A stretch of 64,000 bases of DNA from Fervidicoccaceae archaeon (GTDB lineage: Archaea > Thermoproteota > Thermoprotei_A > Sulfolobales > Fervidicoccaceae): positions 496,001 to 560,000 of the forward strand of contig JAVZVD010000001.1 of NCBI GenBank assembly GCA_038878695.1, written 5' to 3'. Numbering within the stretch: position 1 is the stretch's first letter; each line of letters starts with the position of its first letter. Position numbers and translations under genes: made by a program. The notes beneath the pieces were generated by a model. It was not told the origin of the DNA. It did not search any database and saw only the letters and a program-made list of their open reading frames with translations. Positions 32,270 through 47,240 of this stretch are shown here, piece by piece.

Positions 32270-32347
32270 CTCAGAAGAGCTCGCTCGAAGACGTTATTTA
32301 GCTGGTTCGAGTGACTATTGGGCCGCGTCGTCTCGGTGATCTGTGAC

Positions 32348-33172
32348 ATGGGCGAGAGAATAGCTATCATCGGAGCCGGGAAGATGGGTAGAATTTTAAT
32401 AAAGACGCTCGTGTCCTCCGGCTACTCCGTCGTGGCTACCGGGAGGTCCGAGGCCACGATAAGAGAAGCAGAGGCTCTGGGGGCCATCGCCACGCGCGAC
32501 AACGACCAAGCAGTTAGAAGCGCCGATTTAGTGATATTAGCGGTCAAGCCCTTTCACCTCTCCAACGTGGTAAAGGAAGTAAAACCTGAGAGCTGGGACG
32601 GCAAAGTCGTGCTCTCTATTCTCGCCGGAGTCAAGATAGCCACCATAAAGCGTTTCACCAGAGGCTCCGAAGTCTACAGGGCCATGCCCAACGTGTGCGC
32701 TCTTGTCGGTAAATCATCAACTGCGGTCTCCCACGACGGTGGAGGCAAGGGACCGGGCGCCGAGGTCGTCGAGAGGGTCTTAAGCCAGCTCGGTAGAGTT
32801 TACTGGGTTCCCGAGGAGCTCCTCGACGCCTGGACCGGGCTGGTTGGCTCCGGCCCGGCCTACATAGCAGAGATAATCGATGGACTCGTGCTGGGCGGGC
32901 TGGCCGTCGGGATGCCGAGGGAGCTCGCTCTCGCCTCAATCCTCGACGTCCTCGAGGGGACGGCAGAGTACCTCAGGAGGCTCGGAGTTCACCCGGCTCA
33001 GATGAGAGACGCGGTGATAACGCCCCGGGGAACTACCATTGCCGGCATAGCGGTCTTGGAGAGAGGCAGAGTGAAGTCGACGCTGATCAAGACCGTGCAG
33101 AGCGCCACGAAGAAGTCCGAAGCGCTCAGCAAAATGGTCAACTCCATGGTGGAGGAGGGAGGCGCGAACTGA
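32348..33172 (+). CDS. proC: pyrroline-5-carboxylate reductase
   Basis: 274 residues. NADPH-dependent last step of proline synthesis. Rossmann loop IAIIGAGKMGRILIKTL at the N-terminus, SADLVILAVKPFHL, and the C-terminal dimer domain with LDAWTGLVGSGPAYIAEIIDGL and ITPRGTTIAGIAVLE are all typical. I prefer ATG 32348 over the upstream TTG 32318, because homologues begin next to the Rossmann loop and a TATA-like GTTATTTAGC (32293-32302) would put the transcript start near 32323. Overlaps the DUF711 gene by four bases. Confidence 0.92.
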   Translation: MGERIAIIGAGKMGRILIKTLVSSGYSVVATGRSEATIREAEALGAIATRDNDQAVRSADLVILAVKPFHLSNVVKEVKPESWDGKVVLSILAGVKIATIKRFTRGSEVYRAMPNVCALVGKSSTAVSHDGGGKGPGAEVVERVLSQLGRVYWVPEELLDAWTGLVGSGPAYIAEIIDGLVLGGLAVGMPRELALASILDVLEGTAEYLRRLGVHPAQMRDAVITPRGTTIAGIAVLERGRVKSTLIKTVQSATKKSEALSKMVNSMVEEGGAN

Positions 33173-34254
33173 AGATAAGAGCTCTTACCGCCCACGCGAG
33201 CCCGCGCGATTGGAGTAAAGCTGAGTTAGAGAAGACGTTGCTCGACGCCTCCGAGCAATTAGAGCGCGCGGAGAGATCGCTGAGAAGAGCTCACCTAGAC
33301 GTGTGGTCCAAGCGGGTCTCTCTACCTCCTCCCCCTCCCGGCGTTGACGTGCGCACCCTCGTCTCGGCTGCTCTGAACTTAGACGAGAGCCTCATGATAT
33401 CAATAGGGGGCTTTCTCTCGAGCGACGCGCGCTTGCGAGAGATCAAAGACGCTCTGAGCAGCGGCCTCTTCGCTCACGCCATAGTGGCGAGTAGGGAGGA
33501 TCTGGGGAGGCTCGCCGAGCTCTTGATCGATTGGTCGGCCGAGGAGCCCGAGAACCTCACGAGATTCGCCCTCGACTTCCACGGCGGAGAATTCGTCTCG
33601 CCGTACTTCCCCATTTCTCGCTCTCCTCCCGCTGCTCTGGAGGCGCCTATGCTCACGGTGGCGCTGCTCTACGTTGAAGACGCCGAGGGAGCGCTGAGGA
33701 GAGGAGGGCTCGCCGCTCTCGAGGAGATGCTCATCGATTTCTCCGAGAGGATCAGGGGTGCCCTCTCCGAGGTCGACGACGGGAGGGCGCGCTTGAGGGG
33801 AATAGACTTCTCTCTAAGCCCCTGGATGGAGTCGTCGGTGGCCAAAGTGATCGAAGCGTATGGGCGCTGTCGCCTAGAGGGTGGCCGCTGCATACCAGTC
33901 GTGAGAGACCTGAATCGCGCGTTGAACTCCGAAAGGCTGCGCCCGCTCTCCACGGGCTTCAACGAGTTGATGCTGCCCGTGGCCGAGGACGAGGCGCTCA
34001 AGCTGAAGGCAAAGACCGGGAGCATGCGCGTGGCCGACCTGCTACTCTACGTGCCGGTCTGCCTGGCCGGACTCGACATGGTGGCCTTTCGAGCCGGTCG
34101 CCGAGACCTGCTGACTGTCCTCGACTCTCTCTACTGCTACTCCGAGGTGAAGAGGAGGCCGCTAGGATTCAGGGGAATACCCGTCGAGCCCGAAGAGAAG
34201 GTCGAGAGCATAGAAACCTCGGTCTTCGGAGAGATCCCCGTCATTGAACTCTGA
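33169..34254 (+). CDS. DUF711 (UPF0210) family protein with an apparent CTG start
   Basis: 361 residues if translation starts at CTG 33169. The conserved N-terminus LKIRALTAHASPRDWS is encoded upstream of the first standard start (TTG 33238) with no ATG, GTG or TTG before it; the CTG overlaps the proC stop (CTGA) and is preceded eight bases upstream by GGAGGAGGGA (33151-33160), one of the strongest ribosome sites here. The body has SKRVSLPPPPPGVDVRTLV and STGFNELMLPVAEDEALKLKAKTG, as in DUF711. Function unknown. Ends inside the start of cysS. Confidence 0.75.
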   Translation: MKIRALTAHASPRDWSKAELEKTLLDASEQLERAERSLRRAHLDVWSKRVSLPPPPPGVDVRTLVSAALNLDESLMISIGGFLSSDARLREIKDALSSGLFAHAIVASREDLGRLAELLIDWSAEEPENLTRFALDFHGGEFVSPYFPISRSPPAALEAPMLTVALLYVEDAEGALRRGGLAALEEMLIDFSERIRGALSEVDDGRARLRGIDFSLSPWMESSVAKVIEAYGRCRLEGGRCIPVVRDLNRALNSERLRPLSTGFNELMLPVAEDEALKLKAKTGSMRVADLLLYVPVCLAGLDMVAFRAGRRDLLTVLDSLYCYSEVKRRPLGFRGIPVEPEEKVESIETSVFGEIPVIEL

Positions 34255-45766: not shown

Positions 45767-46393
45767 TTGCGCGCCGCGCTGGTCGTCTTCTCTCTCCGCG
45801 GCGAGACTGAGATCTCGTCTCTTCCTCGCCGCGGCTTCGCCTCGGCGTCGCGCAGACTCGACATAGCGATTAGAGTCTCCTACTACATTCTCACCAACCG
45901 CTACCTCGTTAGACGTCTGAAGCCCAGGATCTCCATAGTGATAGGAGAACCTCCTCGCCGCCCTCTCCACCTTATGTTGCGCGAGGACTTCTGGGAAGAC
46001 TTCGCCGGAGCCACGGAAGTTGAGGCTCTCGGGTACTTCAGGGACTCGGTGGCCGGCCGGAGGAGAGTCAATCGACTGAGGGAAGGGCTTTACGAGGCTC
46101 TATCGCGTTACGTCCACTCCGGCTACAGGGTCGTGGTGCTCAGAGAGCGAGGCGCGAGAATAGCTCCGCAAGAGTTTCGGAGCCTCGGGGATCCCGTCTT
46201 CGTCGTAGGCAGCGACGCCGACCCCCCCGATTGGGTGGAGAGATACTTCAAGGGCTCGATAAACATCTCGCTGGGCTCCAGAAGCTACTTGACGCTCCAC
46301 GCGGCTCTCTTCGCTCTCTTATGCTGCGCCTCCTGGGAAGATTACGTCCTCATCCCTCGCAGGCTCTCGCGCACATCTCTCGCATTACGATAG
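45767..46393 (+). CDS. putative SPOUT-fold methyltransferase, TrmY-like, unknown substrate
   Basis: 208 residues from TTG 45767, one base after the S26e stop. I do not recognise a named family with certainty. RGFASASRRLDIAIRVSYYILTNRYLVRRLKPRISIVIGEPPRRPLHL has the layout of the TrmY N-terminal half ('LP-G-RlDi--R----al-lS---R-dv'), and the end, VFVVGSDADPPDWVERYF followed by INISLGSRSYLTLHAALFALL, looks like a SPOUT knot ('GDH-g--' then 'iSL-p--l-----'). If correct it is a second TrmY-like protein besides the one at 4631-5131. Its end overlaps the convergent nfo gene by 44 bases. Confidence 0.45.
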   Translation: MRAALVVFSLRGETEISSLPRRGFASASRRLDIAIRVSYYILTNRYLVRRLKPRISIVIGEPPRRPLHLMLREDFWEDFAGATEVEALGYFRDSVAGRRRVNRLREGLYEALSRYVHSGYRVVVLRERGARIAPQEFRSLGDPVFVVGSDADPPDWVERYFKGSINISLGSRSYLTLHAALFALLCCASWEDYVLIPRRLSRTSLALR

Positions 46394-47204
46394 CGTCTCT
46401 CTCGAGAAGGGGGCTCTCGCTTATCACGACGGCGTCTATCCCAGCCTCCGAGTAAGCCGAGCATACTGCCCCGAAGTCAGGGCCCCCCTCGTCGGACATC
46501 ACCAGGTGCCTCTTCTCTCCACCCCGCCCGTGCTCTATCTTCGAGAAGTGCGTGTGGAGGGGCCTCACGGCCTCTCTCCCGAGCTCTCTCTCGATCAAAT
46601 CGATGGTTCTCAGAACGTCGCTCGGACTCGAGGGGAACTTGCCGCCGCTCCTCGCGTACAAATGAGCCCAATCGATGGTCGGTCTGCATCTATCGACAGA
46701 AGAGCATATGGCGATGATCTCCTCGACGCTTCCTATCTGCTTGGTCTTGCCCGTGGTTTCGGGCGCTAGCCACGACGACCTGCCGCTCACGATCTTCGAG
46801 ACTTCCTCGACGCCTTTCACGACCATCTTCAGGGCCTCGGTTCGCGTGAAGGCGCCGTAGTAGCCCGGGTGGAAGACGACGGCGTAGCTTCCCATCCAAT
46901 CGCTGGCCTCGACGGCCTCGGCGAGTCTGCGCACGCTAGCCTCGCGAGTCTGCTGCTTCTCGCTGGCTAAATTGATGTAATATGGCGCGTGGAGGCTCAA
47001 TAGCACGCCATTTTCCGAGGCGGCGCGTCCGAGCGCCTCAGCCCTCTCCTTGGAGATGTTGACCCCGCGGACAGCTTCGTATTCCATGGCGTCAAGGCCC
47101 AATTCTCTGAGGAATCGAGGAGCCTCGAGCAGGTCTCCTCTGAGGTCGATCGGCTTCCCAGCTGGACCGAACCTAACGTCTCCGCACTTGCGGCCGAGCC
47201 TCAG
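46350..47204 (-). CDS. nfo: endonuclease IV (AP endonuclease Nfo) with an apparent CTG start
   Basis: About 284 residues if it starts at CTG 47204. TIM-barrel zinc enzyme that cuts at abasic sites: LSLHAPYYINLAS, VVFHPGYYG, LAPETTGK, PTIDWAHLYAR and HTHFSKIEH carry the metal-binding His/Glu/Asp residues. The conserved opening VRFGPAGKPIDLRGD lies upstream of the first standard start (TTG 47102), and the frame back to the TAG stop contains no ATG, GTG or TTG. Candidates are CTG 47204 or GTT 47177. A TATA-like CAATAAAAATC (47251-47241) fits a start close to 47204. Confidence 0.85.
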   Translation of the reverse strand: MRLGRKCGDVRFGPAGKPIDLRGDLLEAPRFLRELGLDAMEYEAVRGVNISKERAEALGRAASENGVLLSLHAPYYINLASEKQQTREASVRRLAEAVEASDWMGSYAVVFHPGYYGAFTRTEALKMVVKGVEEVSKIVSGRSSWLAPETTGKTKQIGSVEEIIAICSSVDRCRPTIDWAHLYARSGGKFPSSPSDVLRTIDLIERELGREAVRPLHTHFSKIEHGRGGEKRHLVMSDEGGPDFGAVCSAYSEAGIDAVVISESPLLERDAIVMREMCARACEG

Positions 47205-47240
47205 AGAGCACCGCCCGGCTCGACGTACGTGAAGACTCTA

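Follow-up and report, generated by a model that had tools for sequence, protein, structure and literature searches.

Which codon starts the DUF711 (UPF0210-like) gene that follows proC on the forward strand, when its conserved N-terminus is encoded upstream of every canonical start codon in its frame? The gene lies in a window of 64,000 nucleotides (the whole stretch of DNA analysed, 60% GC) from an archaeal genome of 1.11 Mb in 5 contigs. A scan of the DUF711 frame from its opening at 32797 agreed with the first-pass annotation that no ATG, GTG or TTG stands between the upstream stop and TTG 33238. The features of the locus are listed below.

32318..33172, + strand: proC (pyrroline-5-carboxylate reductase), upstream gene, start putative; Pfam P5CR_dimer (1.5e-30) and F420_oxidored
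33151..33162, + strand: Shine-Dalgarno tract GGAGGAGGGAGG, three overlapping GGAGG, able to pair with the genome's own 16S 3' end
33169..33171, + strand: probable CTG start codon of the DUF711 gene, the sole column aligning with homologous starts; upstream frame without ATG, GTG or TTG
33170..33172, + strand: TGA stop of proC, read from the sequence, overlapping the CTG as CTGA
33169..34254, + strand: DUF711 / UPF0210-like gene, 361 codons from the CTG plus stop; PF05167 match and 2ha9 fold match
33175..33189, + strand: codons of the IRALT strand, upstream of TTG 33238
33238..33240, + strand: TTG, codon 24, first canonical start codon in frame, judged a non-start

As far as comparison of sequences can tell, a conserved archaeal DUF711 gene almost certainly begins here at the rare start codon CTG. 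Homologues, Shine-Dalgarno spacing, overlap geometry and the structure model all point to CTG 33169 as the start. Four things were observed directly: the sequence, conservation of the N-terminus, an aligned start column and complementarity to the organism's own anti-Shine-Dalgarno. In-frame reading from CTG 33169 gives LKIRALTAHASPRDWS, and the 23 residues ahead of TTG 33238 contain the conserved first strand LKIRALT. Upstream of the CTG, GGAGGAGGGA (33151-33160) can pair with the genome's own 16S 3' end (GGATCACCTCCA) and ends 8 bases before the CTG, the distance stated in the first-pass annotation. The GGAGG copies lie at 33151-33155, 33154-33158 and 33158-33162; 6 bases separate the last copy from the CTG. 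The claimed CTGA overlap with the proC stop is seen at 33169-33172; its four-base geometry is identical to that of the ATGA, GTGA and TTGA overlaps of translational coupling, but the start codon here is CTG and the coupling is putative.

Of 59 genomes searched, 58 (this one included) had a DUF711 homologue, and the 5' ends of 29 relatives were compared with this gene. All 29 encoded a strand of the type [IVL]R[ASTM]x[TAV] (IR[AST]xT type), with a canonical start 1-8 codons upstream of it, which bears out the expectation that DUF711 proteins open with an IRT/IRALT-like strand. The CTG column stands two codons before the strand. Nine relatives had ATG, GTG or TTG exactly there, as expected if CTG 33169 occupies the position of the homologues' Met, and the remaining starts fell within 6 codons of the column. 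Exact-column starts were TTG in four genomes of the same family (L005-L008) and ATG or GTG in five others. The four same-family genes read TTG-Lys/Arg-Ile-Arg-Ala-Leu-Thr, compared with CTG-Lys-Ile-Arg-Ala-Leu-Thr here. The alignment of homologues proposed as a check places the starts at CTG 33169 or within 6 codons of it, and the opposite pattern, starts at the column of TTG 33238, was absent (0/29).

The protein matched PF05167 with 56.8 bits (gathering cut-off 25), mainly over its C-terminal part (residues 208-348), and scored 29.3 bits against the full-length UPF0210 equivalog PRK05313, below its cut-off of 440. The only solved relative, 2ha9 (SP0239 of Streptococcus pneumoniae), gave a weak sequence match; Foldseek matched the AlphaFold model to it over most of the length (E 1e-7, TM 0.55), with a mean model pLDDT of only 54.5. 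Since the Pfam match is mainly C-terminal, the protein is placed by its sequence in a divergent archaeal DUF711 subfamily, which shares the Pfam match and the fold with DUF711 / UPF0210 and differs in length (361 aa from the CTG, vs a profile of 413 positions and the 446 aa of 2ha9). In the model, residues 2-10 form a strand and residues 17-40 a helix (block pLDDT 65-87), so that a product from TTG 33238 would be predicted to lack strand 1 as well as the beginning of helix 1.

Further CTG starts were sought in 400 kb of the same contig plus the window (464 kb in total), in which 478 genes were predicted with a home-made codon-usage model, by screening for genes whose coding signal or homology reaches upstream of the first canonical start. 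Three further genes need CTG and are well supported, and two CTGA candidates are weaker.

C1:323021, minus strand: prefoldin beta, TTAGGTGA-GAAGCT-CTG-GCC-GAG-CAG; NCBIfam TIGR02338 above cut-off
C1:52372, minus strand: JAB-like protein (domain assigned by eye), GGTGA upstream of a CTGA overlap
C1:112229/112232 (112229-112234): P-loop protein, two adjacent CTGs, the relatives' Met at the second
C1:110131: ABC ATPase, weaker CTGA candidate
C1:171825, minus strand: small protein, weaker CTGA candidate

For prefoldin beta, all 19 relatives read had ATG, GTG or TTG at the CTG codon (e.g. MAEKVPPEI); the gap from the upstream stop to the CTG is two codons only, and the next canonical codon lies more than 80 codons on. 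In the gene of the JAB-like protein, stop and CTG are likewise two codons apart, and LRWHRLVEGDP with CTG aligns with relatives having TTG (LKWHKLIEGDP) or ATG (MKWQEV) at that position. Relatives of the P-loop protein read MRILVAGL, vs LKILVVGL here. All four CTG sites, that of DUF711 included, have a GGAG-, AGGTGA- or GGTGA-type match upstream, and two of the four genes are CTGA overlaps.

Several other genes with irregular N-termini came up in the same survey. The gene for GcvPA (glycine dehydrogenase subunit, C1:204268) probably starts at ACG in this genome, and atpA of the low-GC relative G002 probably at ATA, after GGTGA. An endonuclease-IV-like gene (window 46350-47237, minus strand) has a conserved N-terminus, RFGPAGKPIDL, upstream of its first canonical TTG at 47102; it was not retained as a CTG start, since its only near-cognate candidate, CTG 47204, precedes the column of the homologous starts by four codons. 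Two more genes were set aside, those for HisC (C1:147159) and for a radical SAM protein (C1:100408), both with a conserved N-terminus upstream of any ATG, GTG or TTG and no convincing near-cognate start; an indel is one possible cause. A GT2 glycosyltransferase gene (C1 about 123490, minus strand) proved to have a one-base frameshift at a C run instead of a start problem, either a sequencing error or a pseudogene. The G002 homologues of C1:229106-230539 and C1:276008-276952 (one of the pair RtcB-like) carry insertions of ~465 and ~170 residues, respectively, which are missing from this genome and are probably inteins.

CTG is not a general start codon in this genome. It followed Shine-Dalgarno matches in 5 of 74 cases, without enrichment, and CTGA overlaps (11/65) were barely above the control of the same register at TAA/TAG stops (25/192, 13%). 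The other NTGA overlaps were clearly above the control rate (ATGA 14/37, GTGA 31/116, TTGA 31/68); genes of this genome often start in such an overlap, consistent with the earlier remark on TTGA and ATGA overlaps elsewhere. Because CTGA is not in excess over the chance register, a CTGA overlap alone proves nothing. Since CTG shows neither Shine-Dalgarno enrichment nor CTGA excess, it is to be regarded as a rare start on which few genes rely, at least 4 of ~480, or ~0.8% at minimum in this sample with its home-made gene set (four genes, one genome). The first-pass annotation had called a CTG start in an archaeal chromosomal gene rare; rarity holds here, but the DUF711 gene is not a singleton, as at least three more genes need CTG. 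CUG accounts for 0.024% of bacterial start codons, and its efficiency in E. coli is 0.86% of that of AUG (PMC11497404). The share of ~0.8% here exceeds this bacterial 0.024%, an excess based on four genes of one genome. Switches to CUG from UUG, GUG and AUG are rare (UUG-to-CUG 4e-4, AUG-to-CUG 3.2e-5; PMC5622118). In the archaeon Methanosarcina mazei, CTG-started small ORFs made up 5% of unannotated small ORFs (PMC11456600), and the literature searched contained few reports on CTG starts in archaeal chromosomes.

Three other accounts of the DUF711 locus were weighed. Starts at TTG are common in this genome, and automatic gene finding would pick TTG 33238, leaving the LKIRALT stretch untranslated. 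That the protein begins there is very improbable: no relative does so, the 23 residues upstream hold the strand kept in 29/29, the coding score upstream is positive in the codon-usage model, no good Shine-Dalgarno was seen by eye before the TTG, and codon 24 falls inside helix 1 of the model. Equally slight chances attach to a start at another non-canonical codon, ATA 33175, or to a ProC-DUF711 fusion made by frameshifting. The ATA is the third codon counted from the CTG start and has a precedent in the probable ATA start of atpA in G002, but the homologous starts of nine relatives align with the CTG and not with the ATA, and the spacer suits the CTG better (6 bases vs 12). A fusion would be in keeping with a DUF711 frame open far into proC, but inspection of the overlap by eye showed no slippery heptamer, and no proC precedes DUF711 in the relatives read.

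The third account, a TTG or ATG at 33169 misread in sequencing or assembly, would fit an assembly in 5 contigs, the C-run frameshift found in one conserved gene of the sample, and a TTG that looks like the ancestral codon. It is weakened by the lack of mid-gene nonsense codons. Among 186 sense genes with conserved counterparts in G002 (169,647 aligned bp), no clear mid-gene nonsense codon was found; stops occurred in four alignments, near the ends, one of them 25 columns into an alignment of 259 columns. As 3.8% of random substitutions yield nonsense, the error rate is limited to about 4.7e-4 per base (95% bound); errors would then account for fewer than 0.08 CTG starts in 478 genes, vs four seen; error as the source of all four would imply ~160 nonsense codons. 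This bound makes CTG starts by sequencing error very unlikely, and for CTG 33169 itself the chance of an error is just as small as that of the two accounts above.

Translation of DUF711 from CTG 33169, aided by the Shine-Dalgarno tract and the CTGA overlap, read by a CAU initiator tRNA and derived from an ancestral TTG, is thus the best explanation and a highly probable one. The CTGA would be covered either by a ribosome finishing proC or by a 30S subunit that the GGAGG tract in the proC end recruits. The ordinary initiator tRNA, with anticodon CAU, would probably accept CUG with a first-position mismatch; decoding of CUG by this tRNA is established and is applied here. The protein would then start Met-Lys-Ile-Arg-Ala-Leu-Thr. 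The CTG most probably arose when a single T-to-C change altered an ancestral TTG, the genome being 60% GC, and Shine-Dalgarno pairing together with putative coupling to proC may keep initiation sufficient, the terminating ribosome being already in place at CTGA sites. As none of the relatives read was found to have proC beside DUF711, such coupling, if real, would be recent.

An uninterrupted initiator tRNA gene was not found with an anticodon-arm pattern, a 5'-half pattern or the Rfam tRNA model, so the initiator tRNA may be split or intron-holding. A tRNA 3'-half-like piece ending CCCGGCTACCA, with an initiator-like acceptor end, lies on C2 near 22.8 kb (L216 about 1430-1491), and no matching 5' half was found next to it. 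A lineage with relaxed start selection, in which CUG would be a regular minor fourth start (~1% of genes, prefoldin beta included), is conceivable, with odds clearly against it; that reading would take in other near-cognates too (the probable ACG of GcvPA and ATA of G002 atpA), and an initiator tRNA or initiation factor of an unusual kind could underlie it.

CTG starts are already known, and what is new here is their recurrence in one genome, a chaperone subunit included. As in other prokaryotic CUG initiation, the CUG would be read by initiator tRNA after a Shine-Dalgarno; the difference is that the genes concerned, at least 4 of ~480, are ordinary chromosomal ones, conserved, in an archaeon of the order Sulfolobales. 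Gene finders limited to ATG, GTG and TTG would shorten such proteins or drop the genes, and without the CTG start about two thirds of prefoldin beta would be missing. The four defined CTG sites, with orthologues starting at TTG, GTG or ATG, provide a test set for the tolerance of CUG in archaea, at which the parts of initiation factors, Shine-Dalgarno pairing and stop-start coupling could be tested.
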